Part shown: piece by piece, positions 5,575 through 53,339 of the stretch | Layout of the letters: each line of letters begins with the position of its first letter | Numbering within the stretch: position 1 is the stretch's first letter | Source of the DNA: Beroe forskalii | Taxonomy: Eukaryota > Ctenophora > Nuda > Beroida > Beroidae | DNA: 64,000 nt | NCBI GenBank assembly: GCA_011033025.1 | Contig: WFMF01000132.1 | Location: forward strand, 248,001 to 312,000 | Reading direction: 5' to 3' | Translations under genes and position numbers: made by a program | The notes under the pieces: model-generated | What the model was told of the DNA's origin: nothing | Database searches by the model: none | Seen by the model: the letters and a program-made list of their open reading frames with translations, nothing else

Positions 5575-7968
5575 ATCTGTGTGCACACTGCACATGCATC
5601 GATCCATGAAGGGATTGATAAATTTACTTTTGACAAAATTTCTGTCAATAGTACAGTTAGCAACTTTGATGCAATGAACGACATGTTGAGAGAGATAGAC
5701 TGGTATCACCTGAAGATGCTGTGTGATGGTGAGGAAGATTCAGATGGCACCCTCTTCAAGCGCCTCATAGTACTGACTGTCCTACAGGTGACCTTACTGA
5801 TGGCTCCTCCTAAAAAGGTTGGCGGGAAAACAAGCAGTAGTAAATCTTCAATGCCAAGCATTAACTCGCTGAAAATGAAGAGAAGAAAGCTCAACAGGAA
5901 GATTGATGACTTGAATGCGAACAATCCCTCTTCCATGCTCATCCCTGGACTTGAGAAAGAAGTAAGTCTGATATCTTACGCAATCAGGATGAAATTCTTG
6001 CCCACCTAAACCAGCGGGAGTCCTATGCAGTCAGCACTATCAAGAGCAACCCCAAGTACTTTTCAGCTACGCAAAAAGTATGCTTAATACAAGTCAAGTG
6101 TTGCACCGCTAAGGAAGGCATGTGGATCCTCAGCACAGATCCAGTGGAGAAAGCAGAGATCCTCCAATCTCAATATACCAGTGTGTTCAGTGACCCAGCT
6201 AATGTGGTCCCCAAGCATGTGTAGCAGCACTAGGTGACCCGTCAACTGCAACTCTGTGTGACATTGAGTTCTCAGTCGAGGACATACATGCAGCCATAGG
6301 AGAGCTAGACCCTTACTCTGCAGCACCAGATGACGATATCCCAGCTAAGATTCTATGCAGCTGTAAAGACACCCTCTCTCCACTCTGGCTGCTATGGAAC
6401 AGCTCACTGGCAAATGGCCAGATACCGGCAGAGCTCAAGTTGCAGTACATCACGCCGATCTTTAAGAAAGGCAACAAGACTGATCCTGCAAATTACCGCC
6501 CTGTCTCCATTACATCCCACTTAGTCAAGGTCTTTGAAAGGGTCATCCGCAATGCGCTAGTGGACCATCTTGAAACTAATGGCATTCTCCCGGACAGCCA
6601 ACACGGTTTCAGAAAAACTAGGAGCTGCTTGACTCAACTACTGGAACATGTGGACTACGTGCTCAAGAGCCTCAACGAGGGTAAAAGAGGTTGATGTCAT
6701 CTATCTGGATTACAGCAAAGCTTTTGACAAGGTAGACCATCGTATACTTCTAGCCAAACTGGAGCATTACGGCATCAAAGGCAAGCTCTTAAAGTGGATA
6801 GAAGACTTCCTTTTCCTCGAATAGACGTCAAGCCGTGGTGGTTGATGGAAATAAATCACAGTTCGCTAACGTGGAAAGTGGCGTCCCTCAGGGCACTGTG
6901 CTGGGGCCAATATTTTTCATTCTCTACGTGGTGGAAATGATCATCAAAATGGCTTCATCAAAACCACTCGCTTTTGCTGATGACACCAAGCTCCTGCACC
7001 AGATTATAACCATGTTATGCAAGGTTTTGCTCCAAAATGATCTGGATCAAGTCGTCAGTTGGTCATTGAACAACAATATGGTGCTCCACCAGGACAAGTT
7101 TGAGGTCATGAATTTCTGCCTCAATAACTCATACCTCCTGAGAAACCTACCCTTCACTGCAGAGCTGAGACAGTACACAACACCTGATGGTAACATCCTC
7201 CAACCAACATCATCTGTTAGAGATCTTGGGGTCTTAATATCAGACGATTGTGGCTGGACTCTGCAGATTAACAATGTTGTCACAGACTCCCGTAAAATGG
7301 CATCGTGGGTCCTAGGGACTTTCCGGGATAGATCGGAACTGACAATGCTGACTCTCTATAAGTCCTTAGTGAGGAGTAGACTGGAGTATTGTTGCCCTGT
7401 CTGGGATCCTCATCTGATCAAGGACATCCAAGCAGTGGAATCAATCCAGCGATACTTTACCAAACGCATTGCTGGGACAAAGGATATGGACTACTGGGAC
7501 CGTCTGAAAAAGCTGAAGCTGATGTCTCTCCAACGCAGAAGAGAACGGTACACCATAATTCATACATGGAAGATTCTGCAGGAAAAGGCTCCGAACAGCA
7601 CAAGTTTGGAATTTTACAACAGTGAACGTCTTGGTGTCCGAGCGAAAATTCTTCCATTTAACTACAAGGCACAGCGCTCGGTGTCCACTGCTTACGACAA
7701 TTCATTTGGGGTTAAATCAGCTCGTCTCTGGAACTTGCTTCCTAAGCAAGTCAACTCAGTTAAGGAGCTAGAGGCATTCAAGATAGCCCTTGGAGACTTC
7801 CTCACCCAATACCCGGATAAGCCACCGGTTACGGGTTACACACCGCCAAACAGCAACTCCTTACTCGACTGGAGCTGTGAACGAGGAGATGGAGTACGTG
7901 GACATCACTGATCCCAGTTGCGATCCCTGCTAAACCCTTCAAAAATCAAAATGTATCAAAATGTATGT
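5575..7968 (+). mobile_element. CR1/L2-like non-LTR retrotransposon, 5'-truncated and frameshifted
   Basis: This is a dead LINE copy. The 5' part (5581-6009) is the linker between endonuclease and reverse transcriptase. The RT follows in several broken frames: template-binding and palm motifs around 6440-6694 (ITPIFKKGNKTDPANYRPVS), then the longest piece, 6835-7911. That piece carries SGVPQGTVLGP, the catalytic AFADDTKL and the C-terminal domain to a stop. At least three frameshifts (near 6000, 6200 and 6700-6830) disable it. The 3' UTR is short and ends with an ATGTATCAAAATGTATGTA tail near 7966. It is the same family as the minus-strand copy at 51546-52931, which also ends in that tail. 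Endonuclease and ORF1 are missing. Confidence 0.95.
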
Positions 7969-21246: not shown

Positions 21247-22200
21247 TGTTCGCGACACTGAAGAAACCAGGTGATCAGCCCCTTCCTCGTTGGGTCTTCA
21301 CGGCAGAGGAAGTCCTCCTTGCAGCAGGAAACTGCTGCAGTCAGCGTCCTGTGGTGTATATCCCCCAGTGTATTTCATATTTTATGATGTGGAATAAAGA
21401 GTCACATTATGAATGAATTTCAATAGTGTATGTGATAATGTGACAGTTTGTTATCTTTTGCGATAAGGATAATTGAGTGCCTATTGAATGTAATATTTTA
21501 TTCTCATTTACCGTTTAGCATCGTGGGGTTTGCGAGCCCTTTGCCCCCCTTTGACTTTTTCACTATAACCTGATGTCTCACTTGTCCTGATGTTTCCTAT
21601 GTCCTTAATCCGCTTCCTTGGTCCTATTACCCTTCCTGAGTCCTACTTTACCTTCCTACAAACCCCACACCACGCCCTCCTCAACTTTTTCACTACTTTA
21701 ATCCCATTTCCTGGAGGAAGTCAACTGTTTGCTGCGCTGTTTGCTACCCTGAGGAAACCAGACGTTCAGCCTCTTACTCGACGGGTGTTCACGGCGGAGG
21801 AAGTACTGCTTGCAGCAGGACACTGCTGGAGCCAGCGCCCCGAAGCTCATTTCCTGGAGGAGGTCAACCTCTCGAAACTGAACGACGCCGATTTGTCAAT
21901 CTGGTCCTCTCCGGTAGGTCAGGAGCTCCTTGCCCGTATTGAAGTCCCCAGGATGTCCTTCATGAAGCACCTGAAGGCTTGCAGTGGTCCCGACGAAGTA
22001 CGTCTTGTAGTGCTTACCTTCCAGGCGGCACTTGACTTCAAGTGGTAGAACTGGACAAGTACATCCGATCCAGTCTCACAGGCAAAGCTAAATCGGGAAC
22101 TTTGCTGCACTACAAGCATCGCTTGGCCGGACAGAGTATCAGGCAGTGGTTGGAAGACCTGTCCTCCAACACCACCCGAACTACCCTGCTGGAGATCCGA
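21247..22200 (+). pseudogene. duplicated fragments of an unrecognised protein
   Basis: A stretch of about 100 bp at 21247-21350 (FATLKKPGDQPLPR then VFTAEEVLLAAGNCCSQRP) is repeated directly at 21738-21842 (FATLRKPDVQPLTRRVFTAE then EVLLAAGHCWSQRP). The second copy continues for another 60 residues, with EEVNLSKLNDADLSIWSS and FMKHLKACSGPDEVRLVV, to a stop at 22046. In another frame it then gives VELDKYIRSSLTGKAKSG and SIRQWLEDLSS. The last motif links it to the frames at 20043 and 24017. The product is unrecognised; the frame break suggests decay. Confidence 0.45.
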
Positions 22201-22706
22201 CCTGGGATGTCACAGTTGTGGGAGGTCAATTTATTAACTGCCAGGTCGTTTGTGATGCCAATGAAAAGTTCCTGGATGCAGTGGTCAAGTGGCCTGGAAG
22301 CACCCATGATTCCACAATCTGGCAATTTAGTGGAATAAAGACTCTCTTGGAGAACCATGTTCAGAACAAAGGTCCTCACTACAAAGGGTTGCTTTTGTGG
22401 GACTTTGGTTACCCACAGAGAGAAATAATTATGGTGCCATTGCTGGAGGGTGAGCTGACAGCGAAAGAGAAGCTCTACAATGAGAGACACAAGAAATGCC
22501 GCTGCACTGTGGAGAGAGCAATTGGTGTCTTGAAATCAAGATTTCGATGCTTGTGCTTTGAGTATGGAGGCTTTCCAGCGGTTTTGAGAGCCATTGATGG
22601 GACTGCCATCAACATAAAGTCTCCCAGTGCCAATGAAGAGGCCTACGTGGGGCGGAAAGGAGGCCATTCCATAAATTGCCAGATATTCTCTGATTTGATT
22701 GATTGA
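22193..22706 (+). pseudogene. PIF/Harbinger transposase fragments, permuted in one frame
   Basis: The DDE (HARBI1-like) transposase family is recognisable. The first part carries FINCQVVCDANEKFLDAVV, KWPGSTHDSTIW, WDFGYP with the second catalytic Asp, YNERHKKCRCTVERAIGVLK with the catalytic Glu, and RFRCL. Directly after it, in the same frame from about 22575, comes a part that belongs before it: AIDGTAINIKSP with the first catalytic Asp, then GRKGGHSINCQI, ending at a stop. The tail of one copy is thus joined to the head of another; neither is complete. A TTGA microsatellite (22696-22709) follows. The N-terminal DNA-binding domain and the MYB/SANT partner gene are not seen. Confidence 0.88.
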
Positions 22707-25764: not shown

Positions 25765-26215
25765 TCAAGTTTTGATTCTAAAACATGGTTGGCATGCGGG
25801 TATCAAATAGTGAGTTTTGGGACGAGAAACACGATGCAACCATCAGTTTTGCTCTAAACTGGTCCTGTAGAAGAGTTTCGGTGACAACGCCCTCTTTACT
25901 AAGTGCGATGGCTAAATTTTACAAGTTTTTGATTAAAACATAAAAACATAGTTTGGCATGTAGGGTATCAAATTTTTTGAGATGAGAAACACGATACAAC
26001 CACCAGTTTTGCTCAAAACGGGTCCTGTTACTCTGTTAAGAGTTTCGGGCGATCACCCCCCAATTTAGGCTTAAGTGGCATGACCAAATTGACAGGTTTT
26101 CGATTCTAAAACATGGTTGAATTGGAGTATCAGTTTCTGGTCCTGTAAAGGGTTTTTGGTGACCACACCCCTTTTTGGTCTAAGAAAGATGACCAATAAA
26201 TGCACAAAATTTCGA
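25765..26215. repeat. tandem repeat of about 160 bp, three diverged units
   Basis: Units starting near 25765, 25925 and 26090 share TTCTAAAACATGGTTG, GAAACACGATRCAACCA, GTTTTGCTC and CTGGTCCTGT. A fourth partial unit (ATTTCGATTCTGACATGAT) overlaps the 3' end of the minus-strand HMGXB3-like frame and coincides with the point where its conservation ends. Confidence 0.75.
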
Positions 26216-28696
26216 TTCTGACATGATAATCTCCGTGTAGTCACTTACGCCTTCTGGTAATGTCAGAAACTTCATGCAGTAAGTGCACCCACACGGACAT
26301 TGACCATGCAATATCCCACCATTTTTCCCTGTCATCGCGGTAAAATTTTTGGAAATTTCGCTGTAAACTTTGTTAGACGACTCTACAATACGTTTATGTA
26401 TTTGCATTTTTCCACCAGTCGTTTCGATACCCATTTTCTTAGCAATTTGGACCAGTTCTTTATACGCTGACTTAGAATTTAAAATTTGAAGCAAACGTTC
26501 CGGAGTCAACTCTACCTCATCCCCCCGCTCAACTTCACCTGTTTTACCAAACTGCCTCGTTGAGGATGGTCTGTTGTGGGACTTATTACACTTGCTCACA
26601 TAAGGCGACAGTGAAAAGTGAGGCTGAACTCCGAAAAGCTTCAGTGTGTGTGCAGAAACATCTCTGCCCACGAAACCTCTCAAGACATCAACCAAACATG
26701 CATCGTGGTACAAATCATCGAAGTTCTTATAAACATTCTCCTTATCGTACAAAATATCACCAGACTTGAGATCACACGCAATGTTTCGTATTGCATCGAA
26801 TACTAACATTGCAGGGTAATATCCACACTTCAAGCAATGACTCGACATATCAAGTTCCTTCAATGACAAATAATGCTTTGCAGCATTCCCGACTAAATGG
26901 CGATCAAGATTGTACTCAACAGATTCAGGTATGATTGGTTGAAGAATATTCAAGAGACTCTCCAACGACACTCCTTCCAGCCACGAATTCAGCACAGTCT
27001 CCATGAACTTAATGCTGAAGAAAGAAGAGTTGTTATAATTATGAAAACCCTCTGAATATTCCTGATATCTATACTCAAAGCAACCTTTAGGGCAAATTTT
27101 ATTTTCAACAGTTATTCCATTGTACTTTTTATCAAGCGTGAAAATATAACCGTTTTTTGTGACCACCTTTACATCAAGAGCTGATCCACATAAATGGCAC
27201 TCAGTTTCAGCTGGAGTAAACTTCGATTTAGGAGATTCCACCATCAATTCTTCGCTCACCGAAAAGGGAACTTTTTTGAATTTTAAAGCATACTTTGCTC
27301 TCTCAAGCCGAGTTTTAACATAATCAGGAACAACCACTGACTCTGTTTTTGATGGCTGTGCAGGTTTATGAAGGATATTACACCCAAATCTATGATTTAT
27401 TACCAGCATGACCACAAGACAATGTTTGCATCTATCTAAACCACATTCACATACCACTTTCTTTTCCCTCTTGTTGTAAGTTACTAGTATTCTGTTGAAA
27501 CACACTTTCCGACAAACTCCCTTCCTCCCACTTAATGAGCAACCAAACAATACACTAAAATACTGATTCACAGACTCACTTCCGCCATCACAATCCTTGG
27601 CTGAGAGTAGCTTCGGAGTGAACTCACGAACGATAGGGGAAGTGGTCTGAAACTTCTCTCGCAATAAAGTGCTGATGTGTTCACGATCACCATCACTTAT
27701 ATCAGGATCACCACTCATGTAGTTCGCTACAAAGAGATCTTCTGAATCTAAGTTAGGGTCTGCCTCCTTGTAATTAATGACTGACTTTATGTGCCTACAA
27801 ATGAAGTTCTTCTCCGACGTGTGACTTGATGCCAACTCTCTACCTTGAACACAAGTCTCGAATGTACACTCCACATTATTAGACATTAACTGGACATGAA
27901 CAGGCTTTCCAGGGCCAGATGGAGCACTTCTTACCATGAAAATAGATTTTTCAGCATCAACAATTGTACACTGCAAATTTGCATCTTTATCTCCCCCCAT
28001 TTTAGATGGCAATACACGACTGCTGCATTTTTTTGCGTGTGCTATCACTCTTAGCTTGTTTATCGCATTATAGGACAAGCAAGTTCTACAGTGAAAATGG
28101 AGCGTCGCTTTTTTGGACCCTTTTCTTATGGACTTCTTACATTCATCCCTACTATCTCTACACTTTATCAGAAGCGAGTCATCAACATTCGACTCAGGCC
28201 CCCGCCCAGGTACCAAAGAGATGGCCGAATTTTTACCTGAATCACCATCCGATAGCCCCCGGGAATGTTCATCAGGAATGCTATCGTCCAGCAAAACCGC
28301 ACCTTTACAGTCCTTGCCTTTACCCTGAGTCTTGCCTGTACCTGTTTCACCCTGTGACTTACCTAGACCTAGTTCGCCTTCCGATAGCCCCCGGGAATGT
28401 ACATCAGGAATGCTATCGTCCAGCAAAACCGCACCTTTACAGTCCTTGCCTTTACCCTGAGTCTTGCCTGTACCTGTTTCGATAGCCCCCTGTGACTTAC
28501 CTAGACCTAGTTCGCCTTCCGATAGCCCCCGGGAATGTACATCAGGAATGCTATCGTCCAGCAAAACCGCACCTTTACAGTCCTTGCCTTTACCCTGAGT
28601 CTTGCCTGTACCTGTTTCACCCTGTGACTTACCTAGACCTAGTTCGCCTTCCGATAGCCCCCGGGAATGTTCATCAGGAATGCTATCGTCCAGCAA
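26180..28696 (-). CDS. SWIM zinc-finger, HMGXB3-like (KDZ-transposase-associated) protein, C-terminally truncated
   Basis: This 838-residue frame starts inside a tandem linker repeat (residues 1-160, 44-residue unit with GELGLGKSQGETGTGKTQGK). Domains follow in order: a cysteine-rich region with HCRTC; a SWIM zinc finger, CECGLDRCKH, around residue 415; a cysteine cluster, CHLCGSALD then ICPKGCFEYRYQEYSEGFHN, like the CxC clusters found with KDZ transposases and in HMGXB3; a SAP-like helix pair (ELTPERLLQILNS); then GGILHGQCPCGCTYCMKFLT, which resembles the start of the KDZ/HMGXB3 RNase-H-like domain. Identity breaks down after TEIIMS, where a tandem repeat begins, so catalytic motifs are absent. 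The N-terminal part lies upstream at 28818-29786 in another frame. It is more likely a decaying element gene than a functional host gene. Family assignment is from remembered patterns. Confidence 0.68.
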   Translation of the reverse strand: MLDDSIPDEHSRGLSEGELGLGKSQGETGTGKTQGKGKDCKGAVLLDDSIPDVHSRGLSEGELGLGKSQGAIETGTGKTQGKGKDCKGAVLLDDSIPDVHSRGLSEGELGLGKSQGETGTGKTQGKGKDCKGAVLLDDSIPDEHSRGLSDGDSGKNSAISLVPGRGPESNVDDSLLIKCRDSRDECKKSIRKGSKKATLHFHCRTCLSYNAINKLRVIAHAKKCSSRVLPSKMGGDKDANLQCTIVDAEKSIFMVRSAPSGPGKPVHVQLMSNNVECTFETCVQGRELASSHTSEKNFICRHIKSVINYKEADPNLDSEDLFVANYMSGDPDISDGDREHISTLLREKFQTTSPIVREFTPKLLSAKDCDGGSESVNQYFSVLFGCSLSGRKGVCRKVCFNRILVTYNKREKKVVCECGLDRCKHCLVVMLVINHRFGCNILHKPAQPSKTESVVVPDYVKTRLERAKYALKFKKVPFSVSEELMVESPKSKFTPAETECHLCGSALDVKVVTKNGYIFTLDKKYNGITVENKICPKGCFEYRYQEYSEGFHNYNNSSFFSIKFMETVLNSWLEGVSLESLLNILQPIIPESVEYNLDRHLVGNAAKHYLSLKELDMSSHCLKCGYYPAMLVFDAIRNIACDLKSGDILYDKENVYKNFDDLYHDACLVDVLRGFVGRDVSAHTLKLFGVQPHFSLSPYVSKCNKSHNRPSSTRQFGKTGEVERGDEVELTPERLLQILNSKSAYKELVQIAKKMGIETTGGKMQIHKRIVESSNKVYSEISKNFTAMTGKNGGILHGQCPCGCTYCMKFLTLPEGVSDYTEIIMSESKFCAFIGHLS

Positions 28697-28800
28697 AAAC
28701 CAGTCCTTGCACCCCTTTACAGTCCTTGCCTTCCGATAGCCCCGGGAATGTACACAGGAATGCTATCGTCCAGCAAAACCGCACCTTTACAGTCCTTGCC
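28225..28800 (-). repeat. 132-bp tandem linker repeat inside the HMGXB3-like gene
   Basis: Four good and at least one broken copy of a 132-bp unit encode LLDDSIPDVHSRGLSEGELG then LGKSQGETGTGKTQGKGKDC and KGAV. One unit carries a six-base variation (GAIETG for GETG). The 5'-most units (28690-28800) are scrambled; this is where the frame of the 5' ORF is lost. Related units occur on the plus strand at 18960-19190 and 20400-21240. Confidence 0.92.
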
Positions 28801-42189: not shown

Positions 42190-44165
42190 GTCAAAACATC
42201 GAGGTTTATTTCAAAATTGTGACAAATTTTGAACCTGCAATAATTTCTATGTTCAGAATCACTTCAGGCTAAGAGCGAAATTTTATTTTCCGATTATTGT
42301 TCCCAGACTTTTACAGAATACGTTTTGGACATTTTGGAAGTGATTTAGACGATTTTTAGAATTTTCAATTTTTGCACGTGACGCGCATTTTTCGCACGTG
42401 CAGTATCAGAAATGGCGCAACTAGGCATTAGATGTCATCGCATATCGATATCTCACACATATGGACCGAAATCAGATCATTATCAGGTATATTATTGCTA
42501 TGGTGAGGTTTATTTCAAAATTGTGACAAATTTTGAACCTGCAATAATTTCTATGTTGAGAATCACTTCAGGCTAAGAGCGAAATTTTATTTTTCCAATT
42601 TTTGTTCCCAGACTTTTACAGAATACGTTTTGGACATTTTGGAAGTGATTTAGACGATTTTTAGAATTTTCAATTTTTGCACGTGACGCGCATTTTTCGC
42701 ACGTGCAGTATTAGAAATGGCGCAACTAGGCATTAGATGTCATCGCATATCGATATCTCACACCTATGGACAGAAATCAGATCATTATCAGGTATATTAT
42801 GGCCATGGTGAGGTTTATTTCAAAATTGTGACAAATTTTGAACCTGCAATAATTTCTATGTTCAGAATCACTTCGGGCTAAGAGCGAAATTTTATTTTTC
42901 CGATTTTTGTTCCCAGACTTATATAGAATACGTTTTGGACATTTTGGAAGTGATTTAGACGACTTTTAGAATTTTCAATTTTTGCACGTGACGCGCATTT
43001 TTCGCACGTGCAGTATCAGAAATGGCGCAATTAGGCATTAGATGTCATCGCATATCGATATCTCACACCTATGGACAGAAATCAGATCATTATCAGGTAT
43101 ATTATGGCCATGGTGAGGTTTAAGATTTCACAAATTTTGAACCTGCAAATTTCTAACCTGCAATAAAATTTTATTTTTCTTTTTGTTCCCATTATATAGA
43201 ATCATTTTGGAAGTGATTTAGACGCGAAATTTTATTTTTCAATTTTTGATGTCCCATCGATATCTTATGGACCGAAATCATAGAATACGTTTTTGGACAT
43301 TTTGGAAGTGATTTAGACGATTTAAATTAGAATTTTCAATTTTTGCACGTGACGCGCATTTTCGCACGTGCAGTATCAGAAATGGCGCAATTAGGCATTA
43401 GATGTCATTGCATATCGATATCTCACACTTATGGACCGAAATCAGATCATTATCAGGTATATTATGGCTATGGTGAGGTTTATTTCAAAATTGTGACAAA
43501 TTTTGAACCTGAAATAATTTCTATGTTCAGGATCACTCCAGGCTAAGAGCGAAATTTTATTTTTCCGATTTTTGTTCTCAGACTTTTACAGAATACGTTT
43601 TGGACATGTTGGAAGTGATTTAGACGATTTTTAGAATTTTCAATTTTTGCACGTGACGCGCATTTTCGCACGTGCAGTATCAGAAATGGCGCAATTAGGC
43701 ATTAGATGTCATTGCATATCGATATCTCACACTTATGGACCGAAATCAGATCATTATCAGGTATATTATGGCTATGGTGAGGTTCATTTCAAAATTGTGA
43801 CAAATTTTGAACCTGAAATAATTTCTATGTTCAGGATCACTCCAGGCTAAGAGCGAAATTTTATTTTTCCGATTTTTGTTCCCAGACTTTTACAGAATAC
43901 GTTTTGGACATTTTGGAAGTGATTTAGACGATTTTTAGAATTTTCAATTTTTGCACGTGACGCGCATTTTCGCACGTGCAGTATCAGAAATGGCGCAATT
44001 AGGCATTAGATGTCATTGCATATCGATATCTCACACTTATGGACCGAAATCAGATCATTATCAAGTATATTATGGCCATGGTGAGGTTTATTTCAAAATT
44101 GTGACAAATTTTGAAATTCGTCACATTTTTGTCACAATTTTACCGGAAACATGGACTCATTCACT
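42190..44165. repeat. tandem repeat B, 304-bp satellite, about six and a half units
   Basis: TTTATTTCAAAATTGTGACA (with a one-base variant near 43782) recurs near 42205, 42508, 42812, 43478, 43782 and 44086. Units contain TTTGCACGTGACGCGCATTT then CGCACGTGCAGTA and GGCATTAGATGTCAT. One unit (43120-43340) is broken into shuffled fragments. The array ends with TTCGTCACATTTTTGTCACA and CCGGAAACATGGACTCATTC, the same tail type as array A. The repeated 67-codon frames are not genes. Confidence 0.95.
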
Positions 44166-46900: not shown

Positions 46901-49121
46901 ATAAGGTCATGTTGAAAGCTGTCTTGACATATTTTATAGTCCATAAAATGCTTGGTTGAGGGGCTCCACCAGTATTTATCATTTTGAGTCATGTGGAGAC
47001 TTCTGCCCGAGGAAATTTTACATCTATTTTTAAAGAACGAAATTAAAAGCTTGATTGGTTCCAAAGATATAGCCTAATATATGATATGTGGAGCTACGTG
47101 TGGAGCAAGGCCTCAACCAGCTCCAGATGGACATTTTTGATCGAAATTTCAGTAGCTAATGGGTTACATCATTTCACAACTTTTTATTAAGGTTTCTGAC
47201 ATTTATTCCTCAACCAATGTGGAGAAAGATTGAAAATAAATATTAAAATTCCCTCAACCAGGGGTTTTATGTCCAATTTGGAGTCAGAATTTTCAATTTT
47301 AGCTGAAGTCATCTTCTGGCCAAATGTTTGAGGCCATAAAAGTTCTCTAGTGACCTCAACCAGTGTGGAGAACTATTTCAAATACTCTCACCCCTTCAAT
47401 TCTAAAATGTGGAAAATGAGAAATTGTAGGTAACCATCAAATTTATATCAATTATGAAGCCACACGTTGGTTATACAGGCTCATTTAGTATTTTGTTGCT
47501 CCATAAGGGTTTACTGACATGATTGTTAGCTAATTGGATGATATAGCCCTCAACCATGTGGAGCTGTACCCATATCTATAATTTAGATCAGTCTCCACAT
47601 CTGGTTGAATATTCAAATCAATGTAATGTTCATTCAAAGTTATCCAGTATCTATTTACGAGCAAAAAAGGATGCTATCTTGAATAATATCTCAACCATGT
47701 GGAGACACTCTTCCAGTTTGTATTGGCAACTCCTATTAGATCTTCAGCTAATTCTTGCTTTGGTTGAGGAAATCTGTAATTTTTAACTGATGATCATGCT
47801 TGGATAGTGGAGGATAGTGTTCAAACAACAAAATAATAAACAATCAAGGTGAATGAGACTCTCAACCATGTGGAGCTGTTGTTAACACAGACGCAAACAA
47901 GTCACACATAAAAAACTCATGCAACAAAATAACAGAAACAGTACCTAATTGATTTTGCAGCAGGTAATTAGATATAGTTATTTAGATATTTTAGAGACTG
48001 CTCCACTTGGTTGAGTTTTTATGATATGCCACAGACAAAACAAAACGACAAGATTTTGTGATTACGTCAACGAATCACATCATCACTAAATCACCCAAAA
48101 ACTCTTACATATCACGTTAGCCCAGTAGGTTACAAATCATGTCCCAGACTTGCATGACGGCAAGCTCCACACTGGTTGAGTTTATGCCATTCAACTCACA
48201 TGTTTTCAAACAGCAGTACAAAACATCTCTGGATCATTCCTGTTGTTCTAAATACAGTAGTAGTAAAAATTGTATATTGAAGCTGGATTATAGATGATCA
48301 ATTCGCGCCGCAATTGTCTCCACATGGTTGAGTAAGGACACATCAGAGCTGGTCTAATGTAAAGTATCAATGAATCATATTTTATGTTTGATTTAAAACC
48401 TTTAACAGACACACCTCTTCTTAGAAAGAGACGATAGGTTTGTACATCTTCACTTGTGAATAAAAGGCTCCACATTGGTTGAGGATACCTATAAGGAGTC
48501 ACATGACTTACTTTCTATCTATGTCTGGACTGCCATAGTGATCAAAGACCCTCTCTGGTTGAAAAATGCAACTTAAATTGAACTTGAAGCACTTTCCATT
48601 AGCATTCTGTTTATTAGAATGCAGCTCCACGCTGGTTGAGGACTGTTACACATTTCAATCATTCAAAATTGTAATCATACATATTTGTTTTAGTTTTTAA
48701 CAAAGGTTTGACATCTCTATTCACTTAACTTTTGATTCTGTGGACATTTAAAAATCGCCTTTCATTCATAAGGATGCTCCACATCAGTTGAGTAACCAAA
48801 GTTACTCAACCAGGGTGAAGTATGTTCTCAATGCATTTCCAGAGGTGAATCAATTTGAAAAATTATGTTTAACCTAATGCTGCTCTCTGGAATCCCGTGA
48901 ACAAAAACCTGGTTAATTCTAGTCACTGGCTCCACAGTGGTTGAGATACAGACCTAAAATTGGTATCATAAGACATTTTAACCACAGTGTAATAGTGTCA
49001 TGAAGTATCATCTCAAAATTATGAGTATAAGTACAAATAAAACGTAATTAACATTTTGAGGTGAAAAATGGGTAAAAATCGGTCCTCAAATGTGTCAAGA
49101 CAGCTTTCAACATGACCATAA
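46901..49121. mobile_element. 2.2-kb TIR element filled with a regularly spaced 16-bp motif
   Basis: The element 46905-49117 is bounded by perfect 25-bp TIRs starting GGTCATGTTGAAAGCTGTCT and flanked by ATAA on both sides. Inside, a motif CTCAACCA(N)TGTGGAG occurs in forward orientation at 47209, 47355, 47549, 47690 and 47861. Its reverse complement CTCCACA(N)TGGTTGAG occurs at 48001, 48165, 48318, 48468, 48625, 48777 and 48930. Spacing in the right half is 150-164 bp. The switch of orientation coincides with the element's centre (about 48011). Weaker copies lie at 46954, 47111, 47253, 47593 (inverted), 48551 and 48805. Sequences between motifs are not recognisably alike. No coding capacity. 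Confidence 0.85.
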
Positions 49122-50926: not shown

Positions 50927-51545
50927 GTGTGTATTTACTGTATTATTACTAGGGTGTAACAGAATTTCCCAACTTTGGCAACTCAATATATGCCTGGGGT
51001 AATTTCATACAGCCTGGGGTATAAGAATACGAAAAATCAAAAGATTTTTGGAAAAAAATATTTTTTGGGGCTTGCCAGATGGCAAAAACTTTTTTGCCTG
51101 TTAATTATAAAGGCAAATTGCCCAGGTGCTATAACTCAGAAACTACTTGTTTATGTAACTTCTCGTTGTGTTCATCGTTTTCTACAGGTGAGAAAATGGG
51201 GGTATAGGTCAAAGAATTATGCTTCTATCTCATTCAGGGGCTGAGATATGGCCGATTTTCGTATGCCCATATATGGTCAATGACCATATATGGTCATAAC
51301 TTTAACGCCTAATAACTTCTTAACGGAATGAGATAGCAACGAAATTTTTGCACTTTTGTATACTAAGTCATACAGTACCCAAAGAACATGCCCTGGTGAT
51401 CAGAATTGCTTGAAAATCATCAGAAGTGGCCGAATGGCAATATATGGCAATTGTGACGTCATCAAAATCGCCATATATTGCCAATCGGCCACTTCTGATG
51501 ACTTTAAGGAAATTCTGATCACCAGAGCGTGTTCTTTGGGTATGA

Positions 51546-52931
51546 CTTACATACATACATTTTGATACATTTTGAAGGGTTTAGCAGGGATCGCAGTTGG
51601 GATCAGTGATGTCCACGTACTCCATCTCCTCGTTCACAGCTCCAGTCAAGTAAGGAGTTGCTGTTTGGAGGTGTGTAACCCGTAACCGGTGGCTTATCCG
51701 GGTATTGTGCGAGGAAGTCTCCAAGGGCTACTTTGAATGCCTCTAGGGCTGTTGCGGAGTTGACTGATTTAGGGAGTAAGTTCCAGAGACGAGCTGACTT
51801 TACCCCGAATGAGTTGTCATAGGCAGTTGAGACTGAACGTTGTGCCTTGTAGTTGAATGGCAGGATCTTAGCCCGTATTCCGAGACGTTCATACCTGTAG
51901 AACTCTAAACCAGTGCTATTTGGGGCCTTGTTCTGCAGGATCTTCCAAGTATGAATTATCGTGTATCGTTCACGTCTGCGCTGGAGAGACATCAATCGCA
52001 GCTTCTTTAGCCGATCCCAATAGTCCATATCTTTGGTGCCAACTATGCGTTTAGTGAAATAACGCTGGATAGACTCCACTGCCTGGATATCCTTGATATA
52101 GTGGGGATCCCACACTGGACAACAGTATTCCAGTCTGCTCCGTATCAAGGACTTGAAGAGGGTCAGCATTGTCACCTCAGACCTATCCCGGAAAGTCCCA
52201 AGGACCCATGATGCGATCTTGCGTGAGTCTCTAACAACATTATTCACTTGAAGGGTCCAGCTACAGTCGTCAGTGATGTAAACACCGAGGTCTCTGACGG
52301 ATGAGGTTGGCTGAAGGATATTTCCGTCGGGTGTTGTGTACTGCCTCAGCTCCGCGGTGAAAGGGAGGTTTCTTAGGAGGTACGAGTTGTTGAGACAGAA
52401 GTTCATTACCTCGAACTTATCCTGGTGGAGCACCATGTTATTGTTCAACGACCAACTAACAACTTGATCGAGGTCTGTCTGTAACAGGGCCTTGCATAAC
52501 ATGGTGATGATCTGACGCATGAGCTTAGTGTCATCAGCAAATGCCAGTGATTTTGAAGAGGCAATTTTGATGATCATGTCTATCACGTAAAGAATGAAGA
52601 ATATGGGACCCAGAACAGTTCCCTGGGGAACACCACTATCAACATTCACGAATTCAGACTTTTTGCCATCGACAACCACGGCCTGACGTCTGTTGGAGAG
52701 GAATTCCTCTATCCATCTGAGCAGTTTGCCTTTGATACCATAGTGTTCTAGCTTTGCAAGCAGGATTCTATGATCTACTTTGTCGAAGGCTTTGCTATAA
52801 TCCAGATAGATTATATCCACCTCGTTGCCATCCTTAAGGCCCTTGAGAATGTAGTCAAAGTGCTCCAAGAGTTGAGTTAGGCAACTTCTTGTCTTCCTGA
52901 AACCATGCTGATTGTCAGGAAGTATACCGTT
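51546..52931 (-). mobile_element. CR1/L2-like LINE, 5'-truncated, nested copy
   Basis: The minus-strand 3' end of a LINE begins abruptly near 52931 within the RT domain and ends in the tail ATGTATCAAAATGTATGTA near 51546. This abrupt 5' truncation is typical of target-primed reverse transcription. It is the same family as 5575-7968, with high similarity over the shared 1.3 kb. Confidence 0.93.
51603..52929 (-). CDS. reverse transcriptase C-terminal part, open frame
   Basis: An uninterrupted frame of about 440 codons has NGILPDNQHGFRKTRSCLTQ, YLDYSKAFDKVDHRIL with a catalytic Asp, SGVPQGTVLGP, SLAFADDTKL with the catalytic pair, and the C-terminal domain with RSRLEYCCPVWDPH and LWNLLPK, to a stop at 51603. 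The nominal start residues (MYTN) come from the flanking foldback element, so this is not a true start. The enzyme lacks its N-terminal palm motifs, endonuclease and ORF1 and cannot function alone. The open frame suggests recent insertion compared with the frameshifted copy at 5575. Confidence 0.93.
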
Positions 52932-53339
52932 AGTATACAAAAGTGCAAAAATTTCGTTGCTAACTCATTCCGTTAAAAAGTTATTAGGCGTTAAAGTTAT
53001 GCCCATATATGGTCATTGACCATATATGGGCATACGAAAATCGGCCATATCTCAGCCCTTGAATGAGATAGAAGCATAATTCTTTGACTTATACCCCCAT
53101 TTTCTCACCTGTAGAAAACGATGAACACAACAAGAAGTTACATAAACAAGTAGGGCAATTTGCCTTTATAATTAACAGGCAAAAAAGTTTTTGCCATCTG
53201 GCGAGCCCCAAAAAATATTTTTTTCCAAAATTTTTTTGATTTTTGGTTTTCTTATACCCCAGGCTGTATGAAATTACCCCAGGCATATTGAGTTGCCAAA
53301 GTCGGGAAATTCTGTTACACCCTAATTATTACCCTGCCA

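Follow-up and report, generated by a model that had tools for sequence, protein, structure and literature searches.

The closest described parallels to the element considered here are found among transposons with short motifs repeated near their ends. In Spm, as set out in passages of PMC2613891, such a motif is repeated inside both ends, is bound by an element-encoded protein and is needed in cis; deletion derivatives are mobilised in trans, and the motif differs between families. The same passages describe Tgmt*, with a 3-bp target duplication, 24 repeats in 732 bp and 4 in 159 bp. For the hAT element Hermes, part of PMC10368747 reports a zinc-finger domain of the transposase that reads near-end repeats, a quasi-palindrome included. 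Target duplications provide another basis for comparison: Sola2 elements are credited in part of PMC3627910 with AT-rich 4-bp duplications, short terminal inverted repeats (TIRs) of 12–21 bp and one transposase of 888 aa, and Kolobok and piggyBac with a TTAA-specific duplication in a portion of PMC9587614.

The window analysed here (64,000 nucleotides of contig WFMF01000132.1 from the ctenophore Beroe forskalii) holds an element that is, judged by its sequence, a non-autonomous cut-and-paste DNA transposon that has lost its interior by deletion. It spans 2213 bp (46905–49117) between perfect 25-bp TIRs at 46905–46929 (+) and 49093–49117 (−), with ATAA on each flank as the target-site duplication (46901–46904 and 49118–49121); an earlier note on this DNA had placed these ends and their flanks correctly. 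It had also proposed searching the host genome for the TIR and for the 16-bp motif repeated inside the element, and had named the lack of any other copy with these TIRs as evidence against its reading. The 216 Mb scanned contain 58 matches to the TIR at ≤3 mismatches, 53 of them perfect, and 132 exact 16-mers against 0 for the reversed control. Further copies are numerous: at least 34 loci, the window copy included, align to the element beyond its TIR (40 of 45 candidates scored). Over aligned bases, identity to the window copy is 97.7–99.95% for eleven full-length copies of subfamily A, 91–92% for four copies of subfamily B and 87% for C843, which has no left TIR. Target duplications in the 21 two-ended copies are 4 bp long and mostly A/T (ATAA, ATAT, TTAT, GTAT, AGAT and others), perfect in 14, with one mismatch in 6 and three in 1. 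The window family thus displays the TIRs, the target duplication of fixed length and the many copies expected of a cut-and-paste transposon.

The six duplications with exactly one differing base (flanks L022, L023, L024, L025, L028 and L052) include several from copies near-identical to one another, and these mismatches seem more than low divergence predicts. On contig C233, three element ends lie head-to-tail about 517 bp apart (L064 394, 910 and 1428), apparently an incipient satellite derived from a transposon end.

Searched with the halves CTCAACCA and TGTGGAG, 0–3 bp apart and with ≤3 mismatches, the element yields 14 whole sites (additional half-sites excluded) against a mean of 0.45 in 20 first-order Markov sequences. 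The array reported earlier is therefore real, although its reckoning of about 18 copies comes down to 14. Forward sites without mismatch lie at 47209–47224, 47355–47370, 47549–47563 (halves without a gap), 47690–47704 and 47861–47875. Reverse sites lie at 48001–48015 (1 mismatch), 48165–48180, 48318–48332 and 48468–48483 (none in each), 48625–48640 (1), 48777–48792 (2) and 48930–48945 (none), the last being the outermost and on what is the gene's 5' side in C740, the longer relative described below. The central flip in orientation is as had been described (forward 47209–47875, reverse 48001–48945), with two exceptions: a left-hand site at 47593–47609 (−), with 1 mismatch and a 2-bp gap, placed 44 bp past the preceding copy in a step that C740 repeats, and a degenerate right-hand site at 48805–48820 (+) with 2 mismatches. 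Right-half intervals of 164, 153, 150, 157, 152 and 153 bp had been given exactly (a 28 + 125 step being taken as one), whereas those of the left half are irregular (146, 194, 44, 97 and 171 bp), and the proposed spacing of about 153 bp describes the right half only. The intervening spacers, which had been called unrelated, could not be recognised as copies of a single repeat.

The likely autonomous relative, judged from its ends and reading frames, is C740, a 6.7-kb copy (L047 459–7192) with ATAA on both flanks. It aligns at 88–89% to positions 1–981 and 981–2213 of the window copy, on either side of a 4.5-kb centre whose place in the window is an approximate deletion junction at 47876–47886; its spacers are 9–11% diverged from the window copy's subfamily. 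C740 thus supplies what a deletion derivative leads one to expect, a longer element that shares its ends and has coding sequence in its middle, and the window copy seems to have arisen from an element of this kind by internal deletion. On its opposite strand the centre carries a 227-aa ORF with four C2H2 fingers (Pfam) and a DDE-like ORF of 847 aa, for which Pfam and PDB gave no convincing match. Conserved between both families discussed here are D473, D555 and E594 (in DFSEN, SDNC and GHGKxE contexts), which look like a DDE triad, a reading based on residue patterns in a two-family alignment. The 20 motif sites of C740 leave the 3981 bp between its two arrays free. It is the one full-length coding copy of family 1 found among the 53 of 880 candidates scored, and scans of viral and prokaryotic contigs, with two short peptide patterns each, returned no transposase relatives. 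Inside the transposase ORF, a 15-bp coding minisatellite (L047 4278–4522) gives rise to a Pro/Gly-rich repeat.

The genome search with the 847-aa protein returned, among those 53, C740 itself, C1013 (44%) and a fragment on C987, other listed matches being confined to query residues 36–165, around the Pro/Gly-rich repeat. C1013 represents a second family, with transposases 44–45% identical to that of family 1. Its 274-aa ORF has fingers, identified by eye, that align with those of C740 (38% identity), and a further ORF is 727 aa long; in a gene model of four predicted exons and three GT-AG phase-1 introns, fingers and transposase make up a single open frame of 1083 aa. The first splice junction of family 1, the sole one modelled, has the same phase as that of C1013, and by analogy a finger–transposase fusion is predicted in family 1 too. 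No left end could be located for C1013, whose alignment to the copies ends at L067 532.

The motif of family 2, CCAACCA-N0-2-TGTGGAGC, has 163 genome matches against 0 for its control. The first 100 of these fall on 12 contigs, five of which were fetched (C580, C802, C936, C987 and C1013); one match, on C425, is a singleton among the 100. In the non-autonomous copies C936, C580 and C802, the main sites of one side run forward and those of the other side in reverse, and each copy has one or two degenerate sites that break this order; the core motif and its polarity are common to both families. The family 2 TIR is likewise 25 bp long (its terminal bases altered in C936) and has 16 of 25 letters in common with that of family 1 by hand count, and two of the three copies have perfect target duplications, CTAT and TTAT. 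Relative to C1013, the three copies have different internal deletions, and all keep both arrays; over both families, both arrays survive in each of four distinct internal deletions.

Set against the motifs, the fingers suggest a protein–site correspondence. Helices of fingers 1–4, read by eye from the C740/C1013 finger alignment, are QAKNLKR, RKDALKR, RRENLER and NKASLKR in family 1 and RNFNLKR, RKDALTR, NKAHVTR and NIDSLKR in family 2. The finger-code table used for scoring was afterwards checked against three sources, which assign Arg, Lys or His to G and Asn or Gln to A (PMC12264921), RSDNLAR to GAG, RSDALTR to GTG, TSGSLVR to GTT and QSGNLAR to GAA (PMC3607563), and RKDALNR to GTG (PMC2634973); no base preference was assigned to Asn at −1, a residue that three of the eight fingers have there. 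The predictions are GTGGAA + GT.GAG for family 1 and GTGGAG + GT.GG. for family 2. Their best joint placement lies on opposite motif strands, as GTGGAG + GTTGAG (family 1) or GTTGGN (family 2), with 20 of 21 letters in agreement; none of 2000 column shuffles reached this, the maximum being 17. Fingers 1–2 fit GTGGAR, and fingers 3–4 fit GTTGAG in family 1 and GTTGGN in family 2. The half-site difference between families maps to finger 3, where the residues differ as the code expects; the mismatch is at finger 1 of family 1, which predicts GAA where the motif reads GAG. We infer that the encoded fingers bind the motif.

Conservation of the motif was measured with a mask defined on the window copy and, for family 2, on C1013. 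Between subfamilies the motif is 1–2% diverged and the spacers 9–11%: the window copy differs from C740 at 2 of 210 motif and 200 of 1916 spacer positions (p = 1.6e-7), and from B_C279 at 3 of 210 and 173 of 1903. Taken over the four live B copies and C740, motif changes number 2–4 per 209–210 sites, where trinucleotide context leads to an expectation of 22.0–25.1 (C740 halves summed), and spacers are 9.1–10.8% diverged. The earlier suggestion that only the motif is conserved holds in this sense, its divergence between live subfamilies being about 5–11 times below that of spacers. When the mask was slid along all copies, the 23 variable motif columns compared with a slide mean of 51.6, and 5 of 2162 slides were equally low; for subfamily A alone, 7 variable columns compared with a mean of 8.8, and 948 of 2162 slides were as low. 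The 12 subfamily-A copies show no detectable motif/spacer difference (variable columns 7/210 versus 84/1943, p = 0.59), nor does the old A copy C592 (3/209 versus 48/1923, p = 0.48). Since the motif is conserved between subfamilies and no difference is detectable among young copies, selection on it probably works through transposition rather than through some function that fixed copies have for the host. C843 counts against a clean mobility-only reading: although it has no left TIR, its motif rate is still the lower (14/193 versus 243/1823 in spacers, p = 0.017), if intermediate. TIR columns compared had zero changes (50 columns in full-length copies, 41 in B_C403, 25 in C843). In family 2, C987 and C1013 differ over the outer 3' region at 2 of 65 motif and 163 of 586 spacer positions (p = 8e-7), and the six repeat units of C1013 have 1 variable motif column in 52 against 102 spacer columns in 278.

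Site positions were measured from the ends with the gene pointing right. From the 5' end, sites lie at 174, 327, 479, 636, 787, 934 and 1100 in C740 and at 174, 328, 475, 643, 798, 944, 1098 and 1242 in C580, a match with P = 0.13 under a pooled-interval null that allows for the narrow interval range. On the 3' side, C740 has sites at 308, 454, 648, 690 (opposite), 789, 982, 1024 (opposite) and 1124, then four further in, and C580 at 311, 466, 659, 699 (opposite), 803, 995, 1035 (opposite) and 1139; by inspection, the intervals of these 8 matched sites form a common irregular pattern (146, 194, 42, 99, 193, 42, 100 versus 155, 193, 40, 104, 192, 40, 104), leaving aside 4 of 12 C580 sites that have no family 1 counterpart (364, 624, 960, 1297) and the 4 innermost of 12 in C740. 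Spacers at matching 5' positions of the window copy and C580 align with a mean z of 0.53 (outermost 3.1; off-diagonal 0.08), and within-family 5' spacers with z of 0.08 and 0.01. The two families would therefore seem to have a similar site map, with spacers of almost no detectable similarity. No helical phasing of intervals was found (R 0.24–0.29, p about 0.11–0.20, n = 27), and a tight constraint on spacing was rejected, live subfamilies differing by up to 12 bp outside the centre (8, 3, −4 and −12 in B_C279).

C1013 contains a 336-bp motif-bearing unit six times over, with 89% matches, and the 3' array of C740 has a 335-bp pattern in which steps of 44, 97 and 193 are roughly repeated. Spacers of this C740 pattern no longer align (8 of 9 pairs have z < 1, one 2.57), although whole units, motifs included, do (z 3.0–7.4). 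Tandem duplication of a unit of about 336 bp thus seems to lengthen the arrays, after which the spacers drift and the sites stay. Near the element, at 42201–44115, the window also has a 304-bp tandem repeat of 6.1 copies with 89% matches.

We consider it highly probable that the window element is a non-autonomous transposon copy whose motif arrays are extended subterminal sites for its own predicted C2H2–DDE-like transposase; the array is best read as a sparse (about 154 bp), extended subterminal series of putative transposase binding sites. The predicted fusion, four C2H2 fingers with a DDE-like nuclease, would place fingers 1–2 on the GTGGAG half of one strand and fingers 3–4 on GTTGAG of the opposite strand, its long linker permitting 0–2 bp between the halves. 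Main sites are oriented alike relative to the nearer end, hence the central flip. Binding may recruit or orient the transposase and thereby help to pair the two ends, and tandem duplication of the unit would enlarge the arrays while drift erodes all but the sites.

Many transposons carry host-factor sites and the binding by the encoded fingers is a prediction, so the motif might instead serve a host transcription, insulator or replication factor while the fingers bind elsewhere. We think this quite improbable: the 100 listed of the 132 exact 16-mers all fall within element loci (compared by eye), giving no sign of host use, and from one family to the other a change in the fingers goes with a change in the motif. 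The earlier note had offered selection on a protein site or decayed arrays, and each is partly right, the motif outlasting its spacers and C1013 showing tandem duplication. The six-unit array of C1013 and the retained pattern of C740 would suit ordinary decay of tandem or inverted arrays, the motif being left by chance or gene conversion, but its conservation at matched positions between subfamilies (p as low as the value for C740, trinucleotide control included) and the persistence of its core across families, despite almost no detectable spacer similarity, make decay without selection very hard to credit. Arrays on both sides of the gene could also chiefly regulate transposase transcription, by self-repression or silencing of copies, much as TNPA of Spm, in the account of PMC2613891, controls its own activity besides binding subterminal repeats. 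Yet deletion derivatives that lack a full gene retain both arrays, even that past the gene's 3' end, and motif conservation extends over these copies, so that a role mainly in transcription and not in the transposition reaction appears unlikely.

Among described superfamilies, hAT elements have target duplications of 8 bp, and the 4 bp of the window family argues against membership. TTAA occurs in only 1 of 21 duplications, at odds with the specificity of Kolobok and piggyBac. In mode of action, the putative transposase sites may by analogy be compared with the subterminal repeats of Spm or Hermes. The likeness to En/Spm (CACTA) is the repeated subterminal motif, its element-encoded binder being predicted here by finger code; instead of CACTA termini and a short duplication, the ends read GGTCA and the duplication is 4 bp, which argues against EnSpm/CACTA membership as described in the passages cited above. 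Unlike Tgmt* as portrayed there, the window family has TIRs beginning GGTCA, a 4-bp duplication and sites about 154 bp apart over 1.1–2.8 kb per side (coding copies C740 and C1013). With Hermes it would share a transposase zinc-finger domain, here predicted, reading repeats near the ends; Hermes differs in its fingers, which are of the BED and not the C2H2 type, in its very short AAGT-type sites near the end and in its 8-bp target site (PMC10368747). A 4-bp AT-rich duplication, found in family 1 copies and in two of three family 2 copies, and short TIRs recall published descriptions of Sola, and the superfamily is perhaps Sola-like by target duplication. Sola2 TIRs are 12–21 bp rather than 25, and C2H2 fingers and motif arrays are absent from its description in the relevant part of PMC3627910. 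A literature search recognised no motif array of such design, which does not prove absence.

Elsewhere in the window, an 860-aa ORF at 26180–28762 (−) has a CxC4 cysteine cluster (Pfam: KDZ transposases) and a weak, sub-cut-off SAP match. Two similar RVT_1 reverse-transcriptase ORFs, at 6802–7911 (+) and 51603–52964 (−), are probably non-LTR retrotransposon copies, and a DDE_Tnp_4 transposase fragment, which we take to be Harbinger-type, lies at 22092–22706. The short palindromic repeat ATGACCATATATGGTCA at 51263–51296 resembles the TIR tip back to back, probably by chance.

A bolder and rather doubtful extension can be envisioned, in which the element's ends serve its transposase as a ruler on the scale of chromatin. 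With one bipartite site per ~154 bp and a similar map and polarity over more than 1 kb per side, several molecules might dock once per nucleosome repeat, gauging end direction and length before cutting, and finger residues and site letters might co-evolve so as to insulate families within one nucleus. The four encoded fingers and the bipartite site, which change together from one family to the other within a single genome, form a natural lock and key legible from sequence. With them one can test in what way ends that extend beyond 1 kb are recognised by a transposase in chromatin, and by what means related transposon families might escape cross-mobilisation; they also suggest that subterminal arrays expand by tandem duplication, later losing all but the sites.
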